From Flavobacterium sp. CECT 9288 (lineage in GTDB: Bacteria; Bacteroidota; Bacteroidia; Flavobacteriales; Flavobacteriaceae), in contig NZ_OU957226.1 in NCBI RefSeq assembly GCF_918731615.1, forward strand, positions 2,357,501-2,421,500: DNA of 64,000 bases, written 5' to 3'. This document shows positions 1 to 12,014 of the stretch, piece after piece; position 1 is the first letter of the stretch; every line of letters starts with the position of its first letter. The notes beneath the pieces were generated by a model, which worked only from the letters and a program-made list of their open reading frames with translations, had not been told where the DNA came from and made no database searches. A program made the translations under genes and the position numbers.

Positions 1-1
1 T

Positions 2-385
2 CACCAGCAAATGATTGTTGTAAAAGATATTGAAGTATACTCTATGTGTGAACACCACATGTTACCGTTTTTTGGGAAAGCACACGTTGCTTATATTCCA
101 AACGGAAAAATTGTAGGTTTAAGTAAAATACCGAGAGTTGTTGATGCATTTGCTCGAAGAATGCAAGTGCAAGAACGATTGACAGACCAAATAAAAAACT
201 GTATTCAAGAGGCCTTAAATCCGCTAGGAGTAGCAGTTGTCATTGAAGCACAACACATGTGCATGCAAATGCGTGGAATTCAAAAACAAAATTCTGTAAC
301 AACTACTTCTTCTTTTACAGGTGCTTTTGAAAAAGACAAAACCAGAAAAGAGTTTATCAGTTTGGTATCTAATAAACTAAGTTAA
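2..385 (+). CDS. folE: GTP cyclohydrolase I, 3' part (start lies outside the window)
   Basis: Converts GTP to dihydroneopterin triphosphate, the first step of tetrahydrofolate and pterin synthesis, in the cytoplasm. The visible part has the zinc and active-site signatures CEHH and HMCMQMRG and the family segment [11 protein letters not shown]. The frame is open to the left edge (codons HQQ precede the first Met at 11) and family members are about 200 residues or longer, so this is the C-terminal two thirds and position 11 is not the real start. A hairpin with a T-run follows at 427-471. Reduced folate is one of the antenna cofactors used by photolyases, and a photolyase gene lies 1.6 kb downstream on the other strand; that link is an inference. 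Confidence 0.93.
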
Positions 386-426
386 TTGTATCTTTATATA
401 AAATTACAGTTCTACCATAAATTCAC

Positions 427-471
427 AAAAGGAAATTACAAGATTTAAATATTGCGTAGTTTCCTTTTTTT
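427..471 (+). terminator. Terminator after folE
   Basis: Arms GGAAATTAC and GTAGTTTCC pair with one mismatch and are followed by a run of seven T. It lies 42 bases after the folE stop and separates folE from the SDR gene. Confidence 0.6.
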
Positions 472-492
472 GTTAACCTAATTCATAAAGCC

Positions 493-1911
493 ATGAAAAT
501 TCTCTTAACTGGTGCCACAGGATACATAGGAAAAAGACTTTTACCCTTATTAGTAGAACAAGGTCATGAAGTAATATGTTGTGTACGAGATAAGAATAGG
601 TTTTATTGTCCTATTGAATTTCAAAGTAAAATTACAGTAATTGAGGTTGATTTTCTTGACGAGCTTTCGGTTCAAAATATCCCTAATACTATAGATGTAG
701 CGTATTATTTGATACACTCCATGTCAGGATCTGCCACAAACTATGACGAATTAGAAAGTTTATCAGCAAGAAACTTTGTTTCTAAGTTAAACCAAACTAG
801 CGTGCAGCAAGTGATTTACTTAAGTGGTATTGTAAACGATCAAGCCTTGTCAAAGCACCTTTCTTCCCGAAAAAAAGTTGAAGATATTTTAACTACTGGA
901 ACTTTTGCTACCACTACCCTAAGGGCTGGAATTATAGTAGGATCTGGTAGTGCCTCATTTGATATTATAAGGGATTTAGTGAATAAACTACCCGTAATGA
1001 TCACTCCAAAATGGCTCAATACAAGATGTCAACCCATAGCTATCACTGATGTGTTGGATATTTTAATGCGATCCTTATTGAATCCAAAAACGTTTGATCA
1101 AAGTTTTGATATTGGTGGGCCTGATATTTTAACGTATAAAGAGATGCTTTTAGGTTTTGCTGCAGCCAAAAATTTAAAAAGATGGATTTTCACAGTACCC
1201 GTAATGACTCCTAAGCTTTCCTCCTACTGGTTGTATTTTGTAACTTCAACATCCTACAGATTGGCATCGGCACTGGTAAGCAGTATGAAAGTGGAAGTGG
1301 TATGCAATGACAATAGAATTAATGACATTGTGCAAGTAAAACCTATGACGTACCAACAGGCATTAAAACGAGCTTTGATAAAAGTGGACGAAGATAAAGT
1401 AGCTTCCAGCTGGAAAGATTCTATGATTAGCGGGCGTTTCAACACGAATCTTTCTAATTATTTAAAAGTACCCAAAAAAGACTGCTTTATTGACCGCAGA
1501 AAAATGGAAATCATTGATCGGGAATTTACCATCAGTAGAATTTGGTCCATAGGAGGTGAAACGGGTTGGTATTATGGAGATTGGCTCTGGGATTTACGAG
1601 GTTTTATTGATAAATTATATGGTGGTGTAGGTTCCAGACGTGGACGAACCAACAGACATGAAATACATGCTGGTGATGCTCTTGATTTTTGGAGGGTTTT
1701 GTATGCCAATAAACAAGAGGGAAAACTTATCTTATTTGCCGAAATGAAACTTCCAGGCGAAGCTTGGCTCGAGTTTAAAATAATTGGAAATACCTTATAT
1801 CAATCGGCAACTTTTAGACCTGATGGAATATGGGGTAAATTGTATTGGTACAGCGTTGTTCCTTTTCATGGATTTATATTCAAAGGAATGCTTCAAAAAT
1901 TAATTTACTAA
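493..1911 (+). CDS. NAD(P)-binding SDR-family protein with C-terminal DUF2867-like domain
   Basis: The N-terminus is an extended short-chain dehydrogenase fold with the dinucleotide-binding motif GATGYIG at residues 7-13. The C-terminal third (about residues 320-472: EFTISRIWSIGGETGWYYGD, then a Trp- and Gly-rich stretch) looks like the DUF2867 domain that often follows such a fold. The total of 472 residues fits this two-domain family. The substrate is unknown. The gene converges on the leftward carotenoid/photolyase operon, from which it is separated by a terminator hairpin at 1932-1962. Proteins of this type often sit beside photolyase and SRPBCC genes, so a part in the same light or oxidative response is plausible but not shown. 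Confidence 0.85.
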   Translation: MKILLTGATGYIGKRLLPLLVEQGHEVICCVRDKNRFYCPIEFQSKITVIEVDFLDELSVQNIPNTIDVAYYLIHSMSGSATNYDELESLSARNFVSKLNQTSVQQVIYLSGIVNDQALSKHLSSRKKVEDILTTGTFATTTLRAGIIVGSGSASFDIIRDLVNKLPVMITPKWLNTRCQPIAITDVLDILMRSLLNPKTFDQSFDIGGPDILTYKEMLLGFAAAKNLKRWIFTVPVMTPKLSSYWLYFVTSTSYRLASALVSSMKVEVVCNDNRINDIVQVKPMTYQQALKRALIKVDEDKVASSWKDSMISGRFNTNLSNYLKVPKKDCFIDRRKMEIIDREFTISRIWSIGGETGWYYGDWLWDLRGFIDKLYGGVGSRRGRTNRHEIHAGDALDFWRVLYANKQEGKLILFAEMKLPGEAWLEFKIIGNTLYQSATFRPDGIWGKLYWYSVVPFHGFIFKGMLQKLIY

Positions 1912-1931
1912 TTCTGTCAAAAATCAAAAAA

Positions 1932-1962
1932 AATACGCGTTTAAAAACTTTAAACGCGTATT
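1932..1962 (-). terminator. Terminator of the crt-photolyase operon
   Basis: Perfect 14-bp arms (1932-1945 and 1949-1962) with a 3-base loop. On the minus strand they are followed by a run of T. The position fits the end of the leftward operon that finishes with the photolyase gene. Confidence 0.8.
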
Positions 1963-1974
1963 GTAAAATGTAAA

Positions 1975-3270
1975 CTATTTTAAAATTCCTGCTTTGTACG
2001 TTGCTATAGCTCTATCTCTAGCCATAGCATGCTCTACCATAGGTTTTCCGTATCCTAAATCAAATTCTTTAATCCATTTTCTAATGTAAGCTCCTTTTTC
2101 ATCAAACTTTTTTTGTTGAATATCTGGATTAAAAACTCTAAAATATGGCGCTGCATCACAACCAGTTCCAGCAGCCCATTGCCAGTTGCCAACATTTGCA
2201 GACATTTCGTAATCTAATAATTTTTCTGCAAAATAGGCTTCGCCCCATTGCCATTCAATTAATAAATGTTTGCATAAAAAACTAGCTACAACCATACGGA
2301 CTCTATTGTGCATGTAGCCGGTTTCATTAAGCTGACGCATACCTGCATCAACCATAGGATAACCTGTTTTTCCTTCGCACCAACGCTTAAAATCGGCTTC
2401 GTCATTGCGCCATTCAATACCGTCATACGCTGACTTGAAATTACGGTTGACCACTTTTGGGAAACTGTAAAGAATTTGCATAAAAAATTCTCTCCAAATC
2501 AATTCACTTAAAAAAACATCATTTTTATGAAAAGCCCAATTAACTAATTTGCGCACACTTACTGTCCCAAAACGCAAATGAGGTGACAAATAAGAGGTTT
2601 TATCCATAGCTGGAAAATCTCTTGTATCCTGATAATTTGATATAAACTTGAGATTATGCGGCTTAACAGTGATAGCACTTTTTTCAAAACCAATTTCGGC
2701 CAAAGAAGGCATTGCATAGGTATTCTTATGAAAATTAGCATATAATGATTCCGTATCATACTCAACAACGGGTGCCATCGTTTTGTATTTTTCTAACCAT
2801 TTATTTTTAAAGGGTGTGTATACAGTATAAGGTAACCCATCAGCTTTTGTGATTTCTTTTTCTTCGAAAATTACTTGGTCTTTAAAAGCTTGTGCTTTTA
2901 CATTACTTTGTGCTAACAACTCACAAATGGCAGCATCACGCTCTAGTGCATACGGCTCATAATCTTTGTTATAAAAAACATTTTGAATATCGTACTCTTG
3001 TAAAAGCGATTTCCAAACAACATGAGTTTGTCCTTTTTTCACAAGAAGTGAACTCCCTATTTGAGCTAATGCATCCTGAATGGTACTTAATGATTGATGT
3101 ATAAAGTTGACCCTAGCATCATTTACTGGCAGTTTATCCAGAATAGCTTCATCAAAAATAAACAAAGGAATTACAACTCTGCTTGACTGTAAGGCCTGAA
3201 ATAAACCTGCATTATCGTCTAGTCTTAAATCCCGTCTAAACCAAAAGAGAGATACTTGTTGCTTGCTCAT
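1975..3270 (-). CDS. phrB: Class I deoxyribodipyrimidine photolyase (cryptochrome/photolyase family)
   Basis: Uses blue light and reduced FAD to split cyclobutane pyrimidine dimers in DNA. It has the N-terminal antenna-domain opening LFWFRRDLRLDDN and the C-terminal FAD-domain block containing GNWQWAAGTGCDAAPYFR, followed by FNP. The 431 residues are normal for class I enzymes; which antenna cofactor is used cannot be read from the sequence. The ATG overlaps the TAA of the upstream SRPBCC gene (TAATG), so the two are translationally coupled and the enzyme is the last product of the light-response operon. A related cryptochrome is possible, but the conserved active-site block favours a repair enzyme. 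Confidence 0.93.
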   Translation of the reverse strand: MSKQQVSLFWFRRDLRLDDNAGLFQALQSSRVVIPLFIFDEAILDKLPVNDARVNFIHQSLSTIQDALAQIGSSLLVKKGQTHVVWKSLLQEYDIQNVFYNKDYEPYALERDAAICELLAQSNVKAQAFKDQVIFEEKEITKADGLPYTVYTPFKNKWLEKYKTMAPVVEYDTESLYANFHKNTYAMPSLAEIGFEKSAITVKPHNLKFISNYQDTRDFPAMDKTSYLSPHLRFGTVSVRKLVNWAFHKNDVFLSELIWREFFMQILYSFPKVVNRNFKSAYDGIEWRNDEADFKRWCEGKTGYPMVDAGMRQLNETGYMHNRVRMVVASFLCKHLLIEWQWGEAYFAEKLLDYEMSANVGNWQWAAGTGCDAAPYFRVFNPDIQQKKFDEKGAYIRKWIKEFDLGYGKPMVEHAMARDRAIATYKAGILK

Positions 3271-3731
3271 TATTTTGAATTAAAAATTTCATCAACTTTA
3301 GTTACACGGTATTCAAAAATTGATTTTAATTTATTTTTTACAACTAAGGTGTTCATGATGCGACCCAAAATACCTAATGGCAAGCCATAATGCACCACAT
3401 CAGTCATTTTTGTTCCTGAAGGGGTTTCTTCAAAGAAATGTTTGTGGTGCCAAAAGCTGTAAGGTCCAAAACGTTGTTCGTCTATGAAATAGCTGTTTTC
3501 TTTCACTTGAGTAATAATGGTCATCCAAGATAGGGTGATGCCAAAAAGTGGTGTCACTCTATATTGTATAACTTGTCCGGGATACATTGATTTTTGATCA
3601 AAATCAGTAATTTGAAAACCCATTCCTTCGGGTGTAATTTTTTGAAGGTTTTTTGGGTTCGAAAAAAAAATCCAACATTCAGCAACAGATGCATTAACAT
3701 GCTGAACGGTTTCTTGTTTGTATATTTTCAT
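3270..3731 (-). CDS. SRPBCC (START/polyketide-cyclase-like) ligand-binding protein
   Basis: A 153-residue protein that fits the SRPBCC superfamily: an N-terminal strand MKIYKQETVQHVNASVAECW, a central ITLSWMTIITQVKENSYFID region and a long C-terminal helix starting near LGRIMNTLVV. Members bind hydrophobic ligands, and the ligand here is unknown. The frame is open further upstream to 3950, but that extension runs through a dispersed repeat and has no SRPBCC character, so the ATG at 3731 is taken as the start. It overlaps the photolyase start by one base and lies in the carotenoid operon, so a carotenoid- or stress-related role is inferred. Confidence 0.8.
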   Translation of the reverse strand: MKIYKQETVQHVNASVAECWIFFSNPKNLQKITPEGMGFQITDFDQKSMYPGQVIQYRVTPLFGITLSWMTIITQVKENSYFIDEQRFGPYSFWHHKHFFEETPSGTKMTDVVHYGLPLGILGRIMNTLVVKNKLKSIFEYRVTKVDEIFNSK

Positions 3732-3765
3732 AATGGCTTTGTAAAAGAAATTGGTGTTTTTGTGC

Positions 3766-3883
3766 GCGTGAGGGATAGTAGTGGAGCTCTTTTTTTTGGG
3801 GTTGACTTTTTTGTCAAGCCAAAAAAAAAAGCGGGAACGGATAGCCCGACCCCGCTGTAACGCTAGTGGAAGCGAGGTCACGC
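3766..3883 (+). repeat. Dispersed flavobacterial intergenic repeat, copy 1
   Basis: A GC-rich, highly structured insert of about 120 bp between crtZ and the SRPBCC gene. Outer arms GCGTGA (3766-3771) and TCACGC (3878-3883) bracket an inner hairpin in which eight T, then GGGGTTGAC, face GTCAAGCC and A-rich sequence. The blocks GATAGTAGTGGA and ACGGATAGC recur in the same order and strand at 24698-24752 (GATAGCAGTGGA and ACGAATAGC), so the two are copies of one element. It lies inside the transcribed operon and would form a strong hairpin in the mRNA. Confidence 0.75.
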
Positions 3884-3897
3884 CCCAACGATTTTTA

Positions 3898-4338
3898 TTA
3901 CATTTTGTAGTATTTGAAGGGTACAAAAAGCATCCCGAAACATTCTCCATGTTCTTTACCTAAATGCTTGTGGTGTACTTTGTGTGCTTTACGCAAACCT
4001 ATTAAATACTTGTTGTTTGTGTGTTTGAACCACTTAAAACGCTGATGAATAAGGACATCATGGATTAAGAAATAGCACAAACCATAAAACATAATACCTA
4101 GACCTATGAAAAATTTATAATTCAATCCGCCCTCTACACCGTAGTAGAAAAGAGCTATGCTTGGAGCTGCAAAAATCACAAAAAAGATGTCATTTCTCTC
4201 AAAGATGTTTGCGTATTTTGGCTGATGATGATCTGCATGAAAATACCACATGGAACCGTGCATTACATACTTATGGGTACACCAAGTAATCCCCTCCATG
4301 GTTAAAAAAGTACCAAGAAAAATCAAAAAAAATATCAT
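3898..4338 (-). CDS. crtZ: Beta-carotene hydroxylase (CrtZ-type, fatty acid hydroxylase superfamily)
   Basis: Hydroxylates beta-ionone rings, turning beta-carotene into beta-cryptoxanthin and zeaxanthin. The 146-residue membrane protein has the four histidine clusters of the di-iron family: HKYVMH (22-27), HADHH (34-38), HDVLIH (93-98) and HKVHH (119-123), with hydrophobic segments at about 1-18 and 51-92. It follows crtB by 44 bases in the same operon. No lycopene cyclase gene is visible in the window, so its substrate must come from a cyclase encoded elsewhere. Confidence 0.92.
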   Translation of the reverse strand: MIFFLIFLGTFLTMEGITWCTHKYVMHGSMWYFHADHHQPKYANIFERNDIFFVIFAAPSIALFYYGVEGGLNYKFFIGLGIMFYGLCYFLIHDVLIHQRFKWFKHTNNKYLIGLRKAHKVHHKHLGKEHGECFGMLFVPFKYYKM

Positions 4339-4382
4339 TATATTATGTATTTAAGTGTAACAATTTTTATTAATGCTGAAAA

Positions 4383-5222
4383 TTATACTAGTTTTAATTT
4401 ATATGACACAAAAGATTTGGCTAGTAAACCTGCTTTTGAGTAATTTGAAACTCGAATTCTAGAACTTCCAATCTCACTACAAGGCGTATTCTCTAATTTT
4501 TTAAGTAGTTTTTTATAGTAGACAAAGGCAGTGTAAACACCAAACTTTGCCTCTATTGGAAGCTTTACAATTCCTTCATAAGCTACTCTAAAATCCTCTT
4601 CTATTTCGTTGATGATTTGTGTTTTTGCTTTTTCATCGAATGAATTGAGATCTACGCCTGGAAAATAATTACGGTTCAACACCAAATTATCATCTTTTAA
4701 ATCACGTAAAAAATTCACTTTTTGAAAAGCAGAACCTAGCCTCATGGCTTCGTCTTTAAGTTGCTCGTAACGTTTATCATCACCCGCTACAAAAACTTTG
4801 AGGCACATAAGTCCTACAACATCTGCAGAGCCGTATATGTAAGCATCATACTCTTCTTTACTGTGATAATCAGATTTGATTAAATCTAGTTTCATGCTTC
4901 GTAAAAAAGCCTGTACAAGATCATCGCTAATGTTGTATTGCTTAACCGTTTGTTGAAAAGAATTCAAAATAGGGTTTAAACTTATACCTCTTTCTAGGGC
5001 TTTGTAATATTCCTCTTCAAACTCGGTAATGAGATCTTCTTTGTTGTAGCCATGAAATGTATCTACAATTTCATCTGCAAAACGCACAAAACCATAAATG
5101 CTATAAATGGCGTCTCTTATGCTAGGTGATAACATGTATACCGCTAATGAAAAAGAGGTACTGTAATTTTTTGTAACTAACTTGCTACATTTAAAAGACA
5201 CATCGTCAAATAATTCTTTCAT
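4383..5222 (-). CDS. crtB: Phytoene synthase
   Basis: Condenses two geranylgeranyl diphosphates into phytoene, the committed step of carotenoid synthesis. It has both Asp-rich motifs of trans-isoprenyl synthases: DEIVD at residues 50-54 and DLKDD at 174-178. At 279 residues it has the usual length. It starts one base after the crtI stop, so the two are co-transcribed and probably coupled. The geranylgeranyl diphosphate synthase that feeds it is not in this window. Confidence 0.95.
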   Translation of the reverse strand: MKELFDDVSFKCSKLVTKNYSTSFSLAVYMLSPSIRDAIYSIYGFVRFADEIVDTFHGYNKEDLITEFEEEYYKALERGISLNPILNSFQQTVKQYNISDDLVQAFLRSMKLDLIKSDYHSKEEYDAYIYGSADVVGLMCLKVFVAGDDKRYEQLKDEAMRLGSAFQKVNFLRDLKDDNLVLNRNYFPGVDLNSFDEKAKTQIINEIEEDFRVAYEGIVKLPIEAKFGVYTAFVYYKKLLKKLENTPCSEIGSSRIRVSNYSKAGLLAKSFVSYKLKLV

Positions 5223-5223
5223 A

Positions 5224-6699
5224 CTATTGCTCTGAAAATTGCTTATTAATTAATTCTGACACTAATTTTCCAGAAATTAATGCCGGAGGTACCCCAGGAC
5301 CAGGAACCGTTAATTGACCTGTGAAATATAAATTTTTAACTTTTTTACTTTTTAACTTCGGTCTCAAAAACGCTGTTTGCAAAAGCGTATTTGCCATGCC
5401 GTATGCGTTTCCTTTGTATGAATTATACTCTGAAACAAAATCATTTTTACAAAAAGACTCTTTAAAAATAATACTTTCTCTAACATTTTGCTGTGTTAAA
5501 GTTTCAAAACGCTTGATAATTATTTCAAAATATTCCTCTCTTAAAGCCTCAGTATCATTTATTCCTGGTGCTAAAGGTACAAGAAAAAATCCAGATTCCA
5601 TACCCTCAGGAGCAGCAGTTTGATCTGTTACCGATGGGAAATTTGCATAAAACAAAGGCTCTTTAGGCCATTGCGGTTCATCATAAATATCCCTAGCATG
5701 CTGATAAAAATCAACATCAAAAAATAAAGCATGATGTGATATGTTATCTAGTTTTTTATTGAAACCAACATAAAACAACAATGATGATGGAGCAAAAACT
5801 CTGCTGTCCCAATATTTTTCTGAATAAGCTCTGTATTTTTGATCTAATAATGTTTCGGTGTGGTGGTAATCAGCACCACTCAAAATTAAATCAGATGCTA
5901 TGCGATCTCCGTTTATTTGAAGTGCAACTGCAGTTCCGTTTTCAACTATTATTTTGTCAACTCCCGCATTGGTTACAAATTGAACTCCTAATTCTTTTGC
6001 AAGATTTACCATGGCTCTCACCACATCAAACATTCCTGTTTTTGGATGCCAAGTTCCCAATCCGAAATCAGCAAAATTCATGAAACTATAAAAGGAGGGT
6101 GTATCTGATGGTTTTGCACCAAGGAACAATACAGGAAACTCTAAAATCTGGATTAGCCTTTCATTTTTAAATTTCTTGCGTACATCTCTACTTATGTTAC
6201 TAAAAAATTCACCTACTTTTAATGCTGTTTCGGTAGTGATTAACTCTAGAGCAGAAACTCCTGGACGATATACTAAATCTTTAATAGCGATATCATAGTT
6301 GCTTTTGGCACGTGCCATAAACTTTTGCAACTTTGCACCACTACCCTTTTCAATAGACTCAAAAGTGGCAACAATTTCATCTAAATTGTCAGCAATAGTA
6401 ATGAAATCATTGATTCCGTAGTATACCCTATATGCTGGTGCTAGTTTTATTAACTCATAATAATCAGTAGTTTTTTTGCCAAAATCAGCAAAAAAACGCT
6501 CAAAAACATCTGGCATCCAGTACCAGCTAGGTCCCATATCAAACGTAAAACCGTCTATTTTGAGTTGTCTTGCTCTACCTCCTAATGCATCGTTTTTTTC
6601 ATAAACTATCACATTATGACCACTTTGAGCTAAATAGGAAGCTGCAGCCAAAGCAGAAAAGCCAGATCCTATTATTGTTATTTTTTTTATATCTTTCAT
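5224..6699 (-). CDS. crtI: Phytoene desaturase (CrtI-type)
   Basis: FAD-dependent four-step desaturase that turns phytoene into lycopene. The N-terminal Rossmann motif IIGSGFSALAAASYL (from residue 9) and the GGRARQLKIDGFTFDMGPSW block bind FAD, and the C-terminal LYFTGQLTVPGPGVPPALIS segment is the carotenoid oxidoreductase signature. At 491 residues it is full length. It lies 36 bases downstream of the merR photoreceptor gene and directly upstream of crtB, giving the order regulator-crtI-crtB-crtZ. Confidence 0.95.
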   Translation of the reverse strand: MKDIKKITIIGSGFSALAAASYLAQSGHNVIVYEKNDALGGRARQLKIDGFTFDMGPSWYWMPDVFERFFADFGKKTTDYYELIKLAPAYRVYYGINDFITIADNLDEIVATFESIEKGSGAKLQKFMARAKSNYDIAIKDLVYRPGVSALELITTETALKVGEFFSNISRDVRKKFKNERLIQILEFPVLFLGAKPSDTPSFYSFMNFADFGLGTWHPKTGMFDVVRAMVNLAKELGVQFVTNAGVDKIIVENGTAVALQINGDRIASDLILSGADYHHTETLLDQKYRAYSEKYWDSRVFAPSSLLFYVGFNKKLDNISHHALFFDVDFYQHARDIYDEPQWPKEPLFYANFPSVTDQTAAPEGMESGFFLVPLAPGINDTEALREEYFEIIIKRFETLTQQNVRESIIFKESFCKNDFVSEYNSYKGNAYGMANTLLQTAFLRPKLKSKKVKNLYFTGQLTVPGPGVPPALISGKLVSELINKQFSEQ

Positions 6700-6735
6700 T
6701 TGTTTAGCAAATATACAAATTGTTTAAACAAAAAA

Positions 6736-7632
6736 TTAAATCCAATCGACTAATTCTGAAATAGAATTGAAAATTGTTATTTGTTCTGGAAGTTTGTCTT
6801 TATTTATGAACTCTACCATGCGACCAATATACCATAATTCTGTGCTGTCGTCTAATAACTCTTCTGACATCTTCTGAATATAATTATCCAGAAGATCTCG
6901 TTCTGGTTGAACCGTCATGTAAGACACATATACAATAGAGTTAAAGTGTTTTTTTAAGTCTTTTAGGTTTTCAATAGGCATACTTTCACCCAGATAAATC
7001 GTTTTGTATCCGTGTAATAACACTTCATAGTTTAAATACATCAAACCAAGTTCATGAATCTCGTTCATAGGCAAAGACAAAACAAAAACTTTATCATTCT
7101 TGGTTTGCTTCAAAACTTGAAGTTTCTCTGTATTAATTAGTAATTTTTGTTTGATTAAATAACTAATAAAATGCTCGTGTGCTGGAGTAATGGTATCGGA
7201 TTGCCACAAAAGTCCTAATTCATTCATCAATGGAATAAAAACTTGATGAAAAATCTCTTTAAATGATTTCTCAGCTATTAACCAATTGTATGTGTTAAAA
7301 AACAACTCTTGATCAAAGTTCATCATAGCCATCTTAAACTCACTGATGGCGTGACTTTTTGCAGTTTTACTCGAAATTATTTCACGTACAAGCGACGGAA
7401 TTTTTTCCTGAGGATAGGTTGCAATTTTTGATATCTTGTACCCATAATCATGGAGCAAGGTTATGTTTAAAAGTTTTTGTAAACTAGCCAAATCATACAA
7501 ACGAATGTTAGTATCTGTACGCATGGGCTGAAGAATATCGTAACGTTTCTCCCAAATTCGTATCGTATGAGCTTTGATCCCTGAGAGGTTTTCAAGATCC
7601 TTGATACTGAATACATTTTTTACATTGTTCAT
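6736..7632 (-). CDS. MerR-family regulator with cobalamin-binding photoreceptor domain (CarH/LitR type)
   Basis: Residues 8-75 form a MerR winged helix (FSIKDLENLSGIKAHTIRIW). The rest matches the CarH light-sensing part: W143-x9-E153-H154 in the helical cap (LLWQSDTITPAHEHF) and ExHxxG at 191-196 (EIHELG, with His193 as the presumed lower cobalt ligand) in a Rossmann-like fold. In Thermus and Myxococcus CarH, adenosylcobalamin holds a DNA-bound tetramer in the dark, and light breaks it up and relieves repression. The gene opens the operon merR-crtI-crtB-crtZ-SRPBCC-phr, and a palindrome lies just upstream at 7638-7653. Light-relieved autorepression is inferred from intact motifs and context. 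Confidence 0.9.
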   Translation of the reverse strand: MNNVKNVFSIKDLENLSGIKAHTIRIWEKRYDILQPMRTDTNIRLYDLASLQKLLNITLLHDYGYKISKIATYPQEKIPSLVREIISSKTAKSHAISEFKMAMMNFDQELFFNTYNWLIAEKSFKEIFHQVFIPLMNELGLLWQSDTITPAHEHFISYLIKQKLLINTEKLQVLKQTKNDKVFVLSLPMNEIHELGLMYLNYEVLLHGYKTIYLGESMPIENLKDLKKHFNSIVYVSYMTVQPERDLLDNYIQKMSEELLDDSTELWYIGRMVEFINKDKLPEQITIFNSISELVDWI

Positions 7633-7661
7633 CGTTTTTCAATATTTATTGAACAAATGTA
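7625..7661 (-). promoter_or_regulatory. Putative promoter and CarH-type operator upstream of merR
   Basis: On the minus strand TACATTTG (7654-7661) fits the Bacteroidota -7 element TAnnTTTG. Directly downstream lies a near-perfect 16-bp palindrome, TTCAATA-AA-TATTGAA (7638-7653). A second inverted pair, TTGTTCA and TGAACAA (7650-7656 and 7625-7631), encloses it and reaches into the start codon. A repressor bound here would cover the transcription start. No TTG is visible at the -33 position. Assigning this to the MerR protein is inference. Confidence 0.55.
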
Positions 7662-7719
7662 AAATAAAATTTATTATAAATGATACTAAAAAGTCCAAAA
7701 CAAACAAAAAGAGTCATTT

Positions 7720-8664
7720 TTATTTAAAACTCACAGGCTTTATAGCATTCAAAAGGTCTAAATGCAGAATTGTCTTAGAATTATCTTCATTTCTAGTGTA
7801 CATAGGTTCAAACTTAGCACCATAAATTAATTCGTTAAATGTATATGATGTTCTTGTGGCAACTGTATTGCTAAACATGTCATCAAAGGCAGTTAAGAAT
7901 ACAATAATTTCTCCATTGGTAGATTTGAAATCCTCTTCGGTAAAACCATATAGCGGGCTGCTCTCTGTTATAGGATGAACGAGTGTCCAGCTTAAAGTGA
8001 GCACATTTATTCTTTCTAATTCTAGGTCTAATGCAAAAAATTTATTGATATAAACCTCATTTTCTTTTATGCTCATTCTAATGGTGACCTTCGCAAAAGC
8101 ATCGGTAAGATTGGTATTTTTAAAAGGGGTTACTCGCATCATCAAACCCGTACCTTCTCTATACGGTGCAATGATAGCATTATGAGAAAACTTAAGAAAA
8201 GCGGTGGGCTTACTAAACCTTCCAAAAAATAAACCTGTTGCAATGGCAAAACTAAGTAATCCAATCAAGGCTTCGGCTGCAGCCAATAAACTACTCAAAA
8301 AACCAATAGGACTTATATGACCATATCCCACTGTAGTAAAGGTTTGTGCACTAAAAAAGTACGCTTGACCAAATTTACCTAACTCTGTACCAGAAATATC
8401 AATACCATTTAAATATTCTATTCCAATGAGGTAATACAAACAGGCAAAAATAAAATTCATACCAATATAAAAAAGGAGTAAGGTGCATAGAAAACGCCAT
8501 CGAGGCATCTCAATCATGGTGTGGTACCAACTGATTCTATTTAAGATAAACATTCCTCTTTTTTCAACATTGGCACTTCCATCCTTGTTAATAAAACGGC
8601 CACCGTAATTATTGGCATTCGTACCAAAACCCGTATTTTGTTGTCCTTCACCTTTTAATTTCAT
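7720..8664 (-). CDS. Inward-rectifier-type potassium channel (KirBac family)
   Basis: Inner-membrane K+ channel. With the ATG at 8664 the protein has 315 residues: a cytoplasmic N-terminus, membrane helix 1 at about 57-81, a pore loop with the selectivity filter TVGYG at 111-115, membrane helix 2 at about 121-148, and a C-terminal beta-rich domain typical of Kir channels. The frame is open upstream to 8793, but those 43 residues are Cys-rich and unlike the family, so the start at 8664, which opens MKLKGEGQQNTGFGTNANN, is preferred. It is transcribed away from the dienelactone hydrolase gene. What gates the channel is unknown. Confidence 0.9.
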   Translation of the reverse strand: MKLKGEGQQNTGFGTNANNYGGRFINKDGSANVEKRGMFILNRISWYHTMIEMPRWRFLCTLLLFYIGMNFIFACLYYLIGIEYLNGIDISGTELGKFGQAYFFSAQTFTTVGYGHISPIGFLSSLLAAAEALIGLLSFAIATGLFFGRFSKPTAFLKFSHNAIIAPYREGTGLMMRVTPFKNTNLTDAFAKVTIRMSIKENEVYINKFFALDLELERINVLTLSWTLVHPITESSPLYGFTEEDFKSTNGEIIVFLTAFDDMFSNTVATRTSYTFNELIYGAKFEPMYTRNEDNSKTILHLDLLNAIKPVSFK

Positions 8665-8863
8665 AGCTTGTAGTATAAAACATAGACAAGAACAACCCTT
8701 AAAAGGTTTCCTTGCATGTGTTATTGAAACACCAAAAATAGAAATATTAAAAATAAGTAAGTAGCTGTAGTGTGTAAAAACATTTTTTATCAATTAATCC
8801 ACTAAGATTTACAACGGTAATTCTTTACCACTTTTTTTATACATTAGTGCAAACTAAAAAACT

Positions 8864-9757
8864 ATGAAAAAAATAACCAAAGAAGATATCAGTCAAGAGG
8901 TATTTGACTTATATGACGATTATGCACACAATAAAATTGATCGTCGCGGATTTGTAGAAAAACTATCCTTATTTGCTGTCGGTACCTTAACGCTTCCATC
9001 ATTATTGAGTTTCATGTCGCCTAATTATGTGGACTCTATTTTGATACAACCCGAAGACCCCAGAATAAAATCGGGATTTATTACTTACAACTCAGATAAA
9101 GGTGGCGGACCAATAAAAGGACTTTTATCTCAACCTACTAAAACCCGAAAAAAACTACCCGGAATTATTGTAGTACATGAAAACCGAGGTCTTAATCCGT
9201 ACATTGAAGATGTAGGTCGTAGAGGAGCTGTTGAAGGGTTTATAACACTTGCGCCAGATGCTTTATCTCCATTAGGTGGTTATCCTGGTAATGATGATGC
9301 AGGACGCGAACTTCAAAAGAAACGTACGCGCGAGGAAATGCTCGAAGATTTTATTGCTGCCTACCATTTTTTAAAATCGCACAAAGATTGCAACGGACAT
9401 ATAGGAGTTGTAGGGTTTTGTTTTGGAGGTTGGATTGCAAATATGATGGCGGTAAAAATACCAGAACTTGGTGCCGCAGTTCCTTATTATGGAGGGCAAC
9501 CCACAGCTGCCGAAGCCGAACTGATTAAAACCCCTATCCTAGCCCAATACGCAGGCTTAGACACCCGTGTGAACGAAGGTTGGCCTGCTTATGAAACCAT
9601 CTTAAAAAAGAACAATGTACAACATGTTGCCTATTTTTATGATGGTGTTAACCATGGTTTTCACAACAATACCACACCAAGATACGATGAAAAAGCCGCT
9701 ACTTTATCTTGGACCAGAACCATTGATTTTTTCAAGCAGGAATTAAAGAAGAAATAA
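8864..9757 (+). CDS. Dienelactone hydrolase family protein with Tat signal
   Basis: Alpha/beta hydrolase with the dienelactone-hydrolase triad readable as Cys186 (GFCFGGW), Asp233 (GLDTRV) and His264 (VNHGFH). Residues 26-52 start with a twin-arginine motif (DRRGFVEKL) followed by a hydrophobic stretch, so the protein is probably exported folded through the Tat system; about 25 residues precede the twin Arg, which is longer than usual. The substrate is unknown, and many homologues are general carboxylesterases. A terminator hairpin follows at 9772-9801, so this is a single-gene unit. Confidence 0.88.
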   Translation: MKKITKEDISQEVFDLYDDYAHNKIDRRGFVEKLSLFAVGTLTLPSLLSFMSPNYVDSILIQPEDPRIKSGFITYNSDKGGGPIKGLLSQPTKTRKKLPGIIVVHENRGLNPYIEDVGRRGAVEGFITLAPDALSPLGGYPGNDDAGRELQKKRTREEMLEDFIAAYHFLKSHKDCNGHIGVVGFCFGGWIANMMAVKIPELGAAVPYYGGQPTAAEAELIKTPILAQYAGLDTRVNEGWPAYETILKKNNVQHVAYFYDGVNHGFHNNTTPRYDEKAATLSWTRTIDFFKQELKKK

Positions 9758-9771
9758 TGAAATACAAGATT

Positions 9772-9801
9772 AAATTCCCAAATCATCTTTGGGAATTTTT
9801 G
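9772..9801 (+). terminator. Terminator after the dienelactone hydrolase gene
   Basis: Perfect arms AAATTCCCAAA (9772-9782) and TTTGGGAATTT (9788-9798) with a 5-base loop and a short T-run. It starts 14 bases after the stop codon. Confidence 0.8.
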
Positions 9802-9890
9802 TTTTGGTCTATAAAAATAAGTGCTTAAACTTTTCAACTGAACGTATCATTAACGTGAATTCCTAATAAATAAAAAGAATTATATCAAAA

Positions 9891-11180
9891 ATGAAACTAA
9901 AAATACTATCTCTCTTTGCTGTTTTATGGAGTATTAATGGAATGACGCAAGAATCCAAAGGATTGATCATAAAAGACATTAACTTAATAACAATGACCAG
10001 TCCAAATATTACTGAAAGAAAAAGCGTTTTAATTGAAAATGGCAAAATTGTAAAGATTGATGATTTCAATAAACTTTCAAAAAAATCAAACCATGAAGTA
10101 ATTGAGGGTTACAACAAGTTCTTGATGCCAGGATTAGCTGAAATGCACAGCCATGTCCCTGAAGAAAAAGATGTAGAGAATTATCTTTTAGAAAATATTG
10201 CCGCAGGAGTAACTCATATTAGGGTTATGAATACAAAAACACCTCAACTTTTATTAAAAAATAAAATTGAGACAGATAGCAATATAAGTAGCCCAAAAAT
10301 GCATTACAGTCATATAATATCACGTGAGGATAAATATACAGAACCGCAATTTGACAGTTTGATGGTTGCAATAAAAAAGAATAATCTTAATTTTATAAAA
10401 GTTTTTAGCATAGCTAATGAAGAAGTTTTTGACAACTTGATGAAATCGGCTAATAGAAATTCTATTATCGTTTGTGGACACTATCCTAAGGAAGTTGCAC
10501 TTGAAAAAGTACTGCAATCTGGTTACAAAAGCATTGAACATCTTGCTGGCTACGAAAAAATTAATGACCAAAGTGCTCTAGCAAATGCTATTTTATTAAC
10601 CAAAAAATATAGCGTTTACAACTGTCCTACGCTAGATTGGGATATTATGTCAGTAAAACTAAGTTATCCTAATGACTATAAAAATAGACTGGTTTATTTT
10701 AATGCTCCTAAAACGTATCTCGAAAAATGGGAAAAAGAATTAAACGATTATATAACTGCAAAAGGAAATGACCAAATCATACAAGCTGCAGAAAAATACA
10801 AACCTCAATTTCAATACAAACAAAAAATTCTAAAACAACTCAATGATAACAAATGCCTTTTGTTACTAGGTAGTGACCCTGCAGGCAGCTTTCAAATGAA
10901 CGGATTTAATATGTACGAAGAAATGGTAAATTGGTCAAATGCTGGAATTGATACCTTTACTATTTTAAAATCGGCCACTTCAACGCCTGCATCCTTTTTT
11001 GGTGAAACCAAAAATTGGGGGACAATTGAAATAGGTAAATCTGCTGATCTAATAATTCTAGACAAAAATCCATTACAAGATATCACCAACATCAAAACAG
11101 TTGCAATCACAATCATTGAAGGTAAAGTTTATGTAAAATCAGACCTACTAAAAAAGTTAGAATCAAATTCTAAGAATTAA
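9891..11180 (+). CDS. Exported amidohydrolase family protein
   Basis: Metal-dependent hydrolase of the amidohydrolase superfamily, close in layout to imidazolonepropionase- or prolidase-like members. A signal peptide (about residues 1-20) precedes a small beta domain. The TIM barrel then shows the HxH metal site at His86 and His88 (EMHSH), further His in CGHYP and IEHLAG, and the closing Asp in LLGSDPAGS. The C-terminal GKSADLIILDKNPLQDI is the usual return of the beta domain. The family motifs make activity likely, while the substrate (amide, dipeptide or cyclic) cannot be told. It stands alone, with 160 bp of featureless AT-rich sequence downstream. Confidence 0.85.
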   Translation: MKLKILSLFAVLWSINGMTQESKGLIIKDINLITMTSPNITERKSVLIENGKIVKIDDFNKLSKKSNHEVIEGYNKFLMPGLAEMHSHVPEEKDVENYLLENIAAGVTHIRVMNTKTPQLLLKNKIETDSNISSPKMHYSHIISREDKYTEPQFDSLMVAIKKNNLNFIKVFSIANEEVFDNLMKSANRNSIIVCGHYPKEVALEKVLQSGYKSIEHLAGYEKINDQSALANAILLTKKYSVYNCPTLDWDIMSVKLSYPNDYKNRLVYFNAPKTYLEKWEKELNDYITAKGNDQIIQAAEKYKPQFQYKQKILKQLNDNKCLLLLGSDPAGSFQMNGFNMYEEMVNWSNAGIDTFTILKSATSTPASFFGETKNWGTIEIGKSADLIILDKNPLQDITNIKTVAITIIEGKVYVKSDLLKKLESNSKN

Positions 11181-11339
11181 AAAATTGTGTGTTTCAAAAT
11201 ACTATCCTACGCTTACCAAAAAAATAAACAGCAAGCCAAACAAAAATTACTAAAGCTAGAACCCATTATATAACAACTCACAAGTAAATCCTAATTTTTA
11301 CTTTACTGGTTTTTAATAGCCTACCTTTCCAAGAAAGTC

Positions 11340-11948
11340 ATGGCTATAGCTCAAAAGGTTCAATTGGTAGAAGCATTATTTGACCGTCTTGAAAAGGAAA
11401 TTATAGTCTTTCAGGCCCAATCACAATTAAACTGTTGTAGCGGTTGCGGCGCATGTTGCAGTACTCCTGAAATAGAAGCGTCGCCATTAGAGTTTTTGCC
11501 TTGGGCACTGCATTTATTTTTGAATGGAGAAGCTGAAAAAAAGCTGGATATGTTAAAACATAAGTCCAATACTTTTTGTTACTTGTATCAACCTCTAACC
11601 TTAGTAGATCGAGCTATGGGGCGTTGCAGCAATTACCGATATCGCGGTTTAATCTGTAGGCTTTTTGGATATGCAGCCACGAGAGACAAATACGGTCAGC
11701 TACGATTAGCGACTTGCAAAATCATAAAAGAAGGACAAAACGAACACTACAAAACTACTGAAGAAGCTATAAGTAAAGGGCTTTACATTCCTGTTTTTAC
11801 AGACTATTACATGCAACTTTCCCAGATTGATGCACGTCTAGGCATTACCATGATGCCTATCAATAAAGCTTTAAGAACCGCTATTGAAGAAGTTCTACAC
11901 TATTATGCCTACCGTCCTTTTCCAAAAGATTTGGGTAATATTGCTTAA
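11340..11948 (+). CDS. YkgJ-family cysteine cluster protein
   Basis: A 202-residue protein with the N-terminal cluster CCSGCGACC (near residues 32-40) and further Cys in the CSNYRYRGLICRLFG and LATCK blocks, the arrangement expected for a metal- or Fe-S-binding CxxCxxCC-type protein. The function of the family is unknown. It ends just before a two-way terminator shared with the convergent carB gene. Confidence 0.8.
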   Translation: MAIAQKVQLVEALFDRLEKEIIVFQAQSQLNCCSGCGACCSTPEIEASPLEFLPWALHLFLNGEAEKKLDMLKHKSNTFCYLYQPLTLVDRAMGRCSNYRYRGLICRLFGYAATRDKYGQLRLATCKIIKEGQNEHYKTTEEAISKGLYIPVFTDYYMQLSQIDARLGITMMPINKALRTAIEEVLHYYAYRPFPKDLGNIA

Positions 11949-11967
11949 TCCAAAAACACAGTCCCAC

Positions 11968-11994
11968 AAAAAAAAGCCCCATTTGGGGCTTTTT
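11968..11994. terminator. Two-way terminator between the ykgJ-like gene and carB
   Basis: AGCCCC-ATTT-GGGGCT hairpin with an A-run on one side and a T-run on the other, so it can stop transcription from both convergent genes. Confidence 0.85.
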
Positions 11995-12014
11995 CAATAT
12001 AAATATTTAGAGTT

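Follow-up and report, generated by a model that had tools for sequence, protein, structure and literature searches.

A CarH-like regulator may control pigment, photorepair, and rhodopsin genes of Flavobacterium through a shared inverted repeat

LitR/CarH proteins are known to control carotenoid synthesis in Thermus, Bacillus, Streptomyces, and Myxococcus (PMC6739363), and to control photolyase, folE, and cryptochrome genes in Pseudomonas (PMC9758184, PMC11417400); here and below, articles are cited for the sections available to us. We analyzed a 64,000-nt stretch of Flavobacterium sp. CECT 9288 (contig NZ_OU957226.1; hereafter the window, to which coordinates refer), in which a MerR-type regulator gene, merR, lies first in a run of carotenoid (crt) and DNA photolyase (phr) genes. 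We think it somewhat probable that this CarH-like protein acts as a repressor and controls a regulon of pigment, photorepair, and rhodopsin genes via a 30-bp inverted repeat.

The best sequence and fold match of the regulator is the Thermus thermophilus CarH/LitR protein (TtCarH; PDB 5C8D). Both proteins combine a MerR helix-turn-helix (HTH) domain with a B12 domain and have the W-x9-EH motif and the lower histidine, and the Thermus carH neighborhood also holds crtB and a photolyase-like stretch (32.5% identical to phr). However, the two regulators are about 19% identical, His132 of TtCarH is replaced by Gln, and the tandem 11-bp operator repeats of Thermus contrast with an inverted repeat here. 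The class II LitR proteins of Pseudomonas (PplR/PmlR) resemble this system in their targets, which include phrB, folE, and cryB, and in using two spaced half-sites, T(G/A)TACA-N12-TGTA(C/T)A, although half-sites and spacing differ here (PMC9758184). Unlike the regulator studied here, they have no B12 Rossmann domain and work with a partner LOV protein, and the available sections of that article describe no rhodopsin target. Myxobacterial CarH/CarA proteins repress a crt promoter in the dark by operator overlap, and one CarH is a dimer; in contrast to the site described below, their operators are 11-bp direct repeats, and the sections available mention neither a photolyase nor a rhodopsin target (PMC9304148). 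Among relatives, crt transcripts are light-induced in Chryseobacterium lacus, for which the accessible text identifies neither regulator nor operator (PMC7064467), and merR is the first gene of the Nonlabens spongiae crt cluster, where the accessible text only names it (PMC11855829). A full-text literature search, with subscription papers mostly outside its reach, returned no title or abstract on this repeat or on a CarH-rhodopsin link, and none that names “proteorhodopsin” and “CarH” together.

The merR gene (6736..7632, minus strand) encodes a 298-aa protein with matches to PF13411 and PF02607. In the alignment with TtCarH, W143, E153, H154, and H193 correspond to W131, E141, H142, and H177, and Q144 corresponds to H132; the protein carries both W143-x9-E153-H154 and E191-x-H193-x2-G196. 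Our comparisons drew on 40 fetched loci, 80 named loci, the genomes of 60 relatives, and, for repeat scans, 61 genomes of the genus. W143, E153, H154, E191, and H193 are invariant in all 80 named loci, every one of which has ExHxxG; in a 41-sequence set, the W, E, H, and E191 do not vary, and 40 sequences have H193. The sequence-only reading had stated that every readable signature of CarH is kept. That statement holds for W143-x9-E153-H154 and for ExHxxG with His193, but it is not borne out in full: Gln144 replaces the His that ligates cobalt after illumination and that follows the Trp in many, not all, CarH proteins; Asn190 stands where the published GxxH signature has Gly; and of the B12 motif, SxV/T and GG are kept only in part (S237-x-M at a spacing of 40 where the motif has x41, and a single G, at 270, instead of GG). 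At residue 144, 77 of the 80 named loci have Q, 2 (Kordia) have H, and 1 has L.

A PDB sequence search gave Thermus CarH/LitR as the best five of 14 matches. An AlphaFold2 model made from 28 sequences (predicted local distance difference test score 87.3) predicted the CarH fold of HTH, helix bundle, and Rossmann domain; the last of these, with the lower His, distinguishes the model from class II LitR, which has the helix bundle only. Foldseek identified TtCarH as the best match of the model (E 4.3e-14, chains of 5c8d/5c8e; about 19% identity), and the B12 domains superimposed at about 2.2–2.6 Å over about 190–196 residues. Also among the structural matches, at 11–15% identity, were CtMerR and SasPcob, the latter a photocobilin and not a MerR regulator. 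Two profile results count against assignment to CarH proper: the regulator scored 76.3 bits against NCBIfam CarH model NF052513 (cut-off 400), which Thermus CarH passes with 505.1 bits, and the PF02310 profile search gave no match to it. Because of these results we call the protein CarH-like and do not file it as CarH; its binding of adenosylcobalamin and of DNA, and its response to light, would follow from what is known of the family. The genome encodes a PduO-type adenosyltransferase.

Position 144 bears directly on what the regulator may sense. If the protein binds B12 and controls the genes described below but senses B12 supply or redox state instead of light, then a Gln at the bis-His position and a partial Rossmann motif would be unsurprising, and TtCarH H132A loses most of its light-driven dissociation (PMC10442372). 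According to the sections of that article available to us, an earlier study reported disassembly of this variant, whereas a later one found it mostly tetrameric in the light, so the Gln protein might not let go of DNA, a point that also tells against our interpretation. Against a B12 or redox sensor, the adenosyl-capping W and the EH are invariant, and the targets are light genes. CtMerR (Arg) and SasPcob (Gln) have no bis-His residue at the His132 position and are nevertheless light-responsive (PMC11796333), and the light induction of crt genes in C. lacus, whose regulator is not identified, points the same way. We therefore consider sensing of B12 supply or redox state unlikely and prefer light as the signal; with Gln144 at this position, the action of light cannot depend on bis-His ligation, a mode already proposed for the natural Arg and Gln photoreceptors.

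The gene run merR-crtI-crtB-crtZ-SRPBCC-phr had been read correctly in order and coordinates, and every gene lies on the minus strand. Downstream of merR are crtI (phytoene desaturase; 5224..6699; NF058655, 724.6 bits, cut-off 640), crtB (phytoene synthase; 4383..5222; PF00494), a crtZ-like carotene hydroxylase gene (3898..4338; conserved in relatives), a gene for a 153-aa SRPBCC protein (3270..3731; weak PF03364) that adjoins phr in relatives, and phr (1975..3270; PF00875 and PF03441, with matches to PDB photolyases). For CrtZ and the SRPBCC protein, family searches gave scores below the cut-offs only, and both were identified by likeness to relatives and by place. The SRPBCC start was set at 3731 by alignment with relatives; the listed open reading frame (ORF), which extends to 3950, is too long. 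The gaps measure 36 bases (merR-crtI), 1 (crtI-crtB), 44 (crtB-crtZ), and 166 (crtZ-SRPBCC), and SRPBCC and phr overlap by 1 base.

The regulator was matched at E 1e-3 in 47 of the 60 relatives, and the nearest named locus is that of F. psychrolimnae (92% in merR). Since crtI lies immediately 3' of merR in 77 of the 80 named loci, this order is not due to chance. The crtZ-SRPBCC-phr order is a clade trait, present in 14 of 40 fetched and 19 of 80 named loci; a phr photolyase with at least 70% identity occurs in 17 of 60 genomes, and identity is at most 60% in the remaining genomes with phr. In one genome (G033, locus L057) the sole regulator is divergent (44%) and adjoins an SDR gene away from crt, and the genome has no exact copy of the repeat. 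The regulator was also present in public bins titled Bifidobacterium breve, Klebsiella pneumoniae, and Rhizobium (L272, L276, L278), which are probably mislabeled.

We first saw a shared motif, which runs from a -7-like box, in the merR upstream regions and merR-crtI gaps of the 40 loci. TAnnTTTGTTWAACAAA with at most one mismatch occurred in 21 of 30 crtI gaps (0.00% of shuffles) and 15 of 30 merR upstream regions (0.50%) of the genus, and outside the genus in 1 of 11 and 0 of 11, respectively. Its fuller form is the 30-bp inverted repeat TGTTTAA-N16-TTAAACA. Across the 80 named loci, this repeat is exact in 26 crtI gaps and within one mismatch in 37 (shuffles 0.00% and 0.19%); it is within two mismatches in 66 merR upstream regions (shuffles 2.9%), where it overlaps the start codon with its right half, part of which is coding. 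Incorrectly called start codons in L056, L058, and L061 make their merR upstream regions unreliable in the motif counts.

In the window, an operator-like copy with one mismatch, TGTTTAA-N16-CTAAACA (6701..6730, minus strand), occupies the merR-crtI gap and encloses the -7-like box of crtI, TATATTTG (6708..6715, minus strand). A search of the window for an equally strong repeat at the merR promoter found none; the copy there, TGTTCAA-N16-ATGAACA (7626..7655, minus strand), has three mismatches, spans the start codon, and is partly coding in its right half. Next to it we read a -7-like box of merR, TACATTTG (7654..7661, minus strand), the promoter type of which we presume. With a box and a repeat at merR and again at crtI, the latter inside the 36-base gap, the proposal of a single transcript headed by merR lacks support in the form given. 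The crtI start codon lies 8 bases past its -7-like box (6699–6715), so the crtI mRNA may be leaderless.

The 61 genus genomes hold 174 exact copies of the repeat, compared with 19 of the reversed pattern, and 65 of 67 distinct exact sites lie outside any spanning ORF of at least 100 aa. When gaps of 11–21 were tallied in 15 of these genomes, a gap of 16 accounted for 50 of 73 sites and the other ten gaps together for 23; the reversed pattern with gap 16 occurred twice. Genomes with merR (n = 52) contain 3.23 exact copies on average, vs 0.67 in those without (n = 9; p 1.9e-5). Two sites in merR-less genomes were read, and neither is by a light gene: that of G022 is within an ORF, and that of G020 lies between endonuclease III-like and sigma-factor-like genes (names from reading).

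The strain’s own genome carries five exact copies. They lie before a Flavin_Reduct and DPRP photolyase gene pair, facing a penicillin amidase gene; before a fasciclin gene; between a rhodopsin gene (PF01036) and the blh gene (PF15461) that faces it, where there is a second site with one mismatch; between an epimerase/DUF1731 gene and a run encoding TetR_C_23, an ABC1 kinase, two photolyase/cryptochromes, DUF2805, SDR, and FolE (G000:C1:2351240-2351269, about 6.2 kb upstream of the window, into which the folE run extends); and before a DUF2452 gene. The rhodopsin (PF01036, 141.7 bits) has proteorhodopsins 9jov and 9jou as its best PDB matches, and RYVDW..T...E and INK are aligned, which we take to be the proton-pump residues and the retinal lysine; together these features mark it as a proteorhodopsin.

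We could read 77 distinct exact sites: 67 from the genome scans and the rest from rhodopsin loci. The 67 are the five own-genome sites, one site (the first) for every further genome given a locus, and additional sites from nine genomes. Of the 77, 69 adjoin one of 11 target classes and 8 adjoin none. The classes are fasciclin (12), rhodopsin/blh (11, a count inflated by the deliberate fetching of some rhodopsin loci), the TetR-cryptochrome run (10), DUF2452 (10), flavin reductase-DPRP (6), SDR/DUF2805 (6), crtI or merR (4), SRPBCC-phr (4), folE (3), other photolyases (2), and heme oxygenase with a PAS_2 protein (1). Control confined to crt and phr, as first suggested, is thus too narrow a scope, given the sites at rhodopsin/blh, other photolyases, and the cryptochrome-folE run. 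Within 260 bp upstream of 21 rhodopsin genes (L220, below the cut-off, and L222, a fragment, are left out), the repeat is present with at most one mismatch in 16 (shuffles 0.57%) and exactly in 10 (0%). As background, 6 of 288 other ORFs (≥150 aa, 39 loci) have the repeat; five of them share the gap with SRPBCC, which they face, and the sixth is similar to a gene that faces fasciclin elsewhere.

No class occurs behind the repeat more often than fasciclin-domain genes (L159, L168, and others). DUF2452 genes (e.g., L162) lie some 90–315 bp from it and are candidate photoprotection genes. In genome G083, an exact repeat precedes a heme oxygenase gene and then a PAS_2 (phytochrome-like) gene (L192:756-1355 and 1-753, minus strand), hinting at a second photoreceptor within the regulon there. 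Sites outside the main classes (L235, L175, L253, L178) include genes that we named by reading as CHRD-type lipoprotein-like and methionine sulfoxide reductase-like.

The TetR_C_23 and ABC1 atypical kinase genes head the cryptochrome-folE run (L074:5810-7776), in an order that is conserved behind the repeat. A different binder of the repeat, most likely this TetR_C_23 protein, could leave merR as a mere fellow traveler: TetR-type operators are palindromes, the TetR gene stands directly behind the repeat (37–40 bp downstream), and TetR and merR mostly co-occur. Against this, six genomes with merR and no TetR average 1.67 exact repeats, vs 0.62 in eight genomes with neither (p 0.012), and in each of three TetR-less genomes (G009, G011, G024) one of the sites is the merR-crtI gap. 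The repeat is also found at merR and crtI themselves. TetR is accordingly the less likely binder, and we hold this explanation improbable, to the same degree as the B12 or redox sensor.

Several observations weigh against the merR product as the protein that acts through the repeat at light genes. Pooled over gaps of 11–21, the reversed pattern is the commoner one in the 15 genomes (91 vs 73), so the evidence from spacing is confined to the gap-16 peak. The merR co-occurrence statistic ignores relatedness. In the strain’s own genome, matches with at most one mismatch number 13 for the repeat and 9 for its reverse, which makes the single-mismatch ones weak evidence by themselves. The tandem 11-bp direct repeats typical of CarH sites in Thermus and Bacillus are replaced here by an inverted site with a gap of 16. 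No repeat within one mismatch was found upstream of 5 of the 21 rhodopsin genes, and G066, in which merR was not found, has a one-mismatch rhodopsin site. To our knowledge, neither fasciclin nor DUF2452 genes, together 22 of the 77 sites, have a light role. Separately, the first 17-bp pattern, TAnnTTTGTTWAACAAA, showed no own-genome enrichment at two mismatches (243 vs 236) and was replaced by the bipartite repeat.

At crtI, and in the proximal copy at the rhodopsin gene, the repeat extends with its right half over the end of the -7-like box, a position that fits repressor action. MerR proteins often activate, and the repeat is a dyad near a promoter, so the regulator could instead work by classical twisting of the DNA between promoter boxes; a protein bound over the end of the -7-like box should, however, block polymerase. 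The characterized LitR/CarH proteins repress, as far as the available sections of PMC9758184 describe them. Activation appears slightly less probable to us than the TetR or the B12/redox explanation. As a repressor, the regulator with adenosylcobalamin would occupy the inverted repeat over the crtI promoter in the dark, and its own promoter more weakly; in the light, the Co-C bond would break and the repressor would leave the DNA. As copies of the repeat precede several unlinked genes, a single light signal would increase the carotenoid enzymes along with photolyases/cryptochromes, FolE, and the proteorhodopsin-Blh pair.

The position of phr in this regulon can be judged from relatives. Where SRPBCC-phr lies away from crtZ, 10 of 21 loci have a repeat belonging to the pair itself. 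All 10 are among the 13 merR-bearing loci of the genus; the pair has none in three merR-less loci (L149, L154, L155) or in five others outside the genus. Contrary to expectation, no repeat was found at SRPBCC of L140, L142, and L150, where merR is present, or of L152. A phr-proximal repeat was sought at the crtZ-linked pairs and found in 0 of 15 loci. The contrast of 10 of 21 with 0 of 15 suggests that regulon membership was kept while its means shifted from an own operator to the operon, and it makes a stronger case for joint crt/photolyase control than the operon by itself. The idea that one repressor governs carotenoid and photolyase together is upheld to the extent of a CarH-like regulator and common control, seen as a repeat at crtI here and at the SRPBCC-phr promoter in sister species. 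In this clade the pair would have joined by its position behind crtZ.

The repeat element noted earlier between crtZ and SRPBCC is indeed present, and we identified it as the Rfam Flavo-1 RNA element (RF01705; 3757..3855, plus strand; 49.6 bits, gathering 42); an Rfam search of window positions 1–12000 gave nothing else. On the coding strand, this gap forms a hairpin (−16.1 kcal/mol, z −3.5, 1 of 200 shuffles as stable) followed by ten U (3821..3856, minus strand), terminator-like in the crtZ-to-phr direction, although a simple terminator scan did not list it. Read-through from crtZ to phr is therefore uncertain, which also detracts from joint control. The hairpin could end the crt transcript, leaving phr to be expressed separately, and of 16 relatives with the crtZ-SRPBCC-phr arrangement, 6 likewise have a Flavo-1 match in this gap, judged by position. 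Yet neither a repeat nor a -7-like box was found before SRPBCC in the window, all 15 crtZ-linked pairs are without a repeat of their own, as expected if the crtI promoter is used, and the crtZ-SRPBCC gap is only about 14 bases in L038. We regard separate phr expression as doubtful, though less so than any other alternative considered here.

We see about even chances that in Flavobacterium a B12 photoreceptor lacking the bis-His switch exerts direct control over proteorhodopsin and retinal synthesis, along with the carotenoid and photorepair genes, through the 30-bp repeat, and that the relocated phr lost its operator. If true, one B12-type sensor would couple phototrophy, pigment, and DNA repair across a large bacterial group and tie them to vitamin B12 supply, and the timing of pump synthesis would depend on light and oxygen together with that supply. 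The system probes whether a CarH-like protein works when the bis-His position holds a conserved Gln, and through the shared DNA site the light switch of these bacteria is accessible to direct tests.

A further terminator-like hairpin lies downstream of phr (1932..1962, minus strand), from a scan that found 4 in the region against a chance expectation of 3.0. Convergent with phr is an SDR/DUF2867 gene (493..1911, plus strand; PF11066), possibly the last gene of the cryptochrome-folE run, which begins outside the window; the C-terminal part of folE (11..385, plus strand; PF01227) precedes it, the start of that gene lying before the window. Directly upstream of merR, a minus-strand gene (7720–8700) encodes an inward-rectifier-type potassium channel, a relative of which occupies the same place in 7 of the 40 loci.

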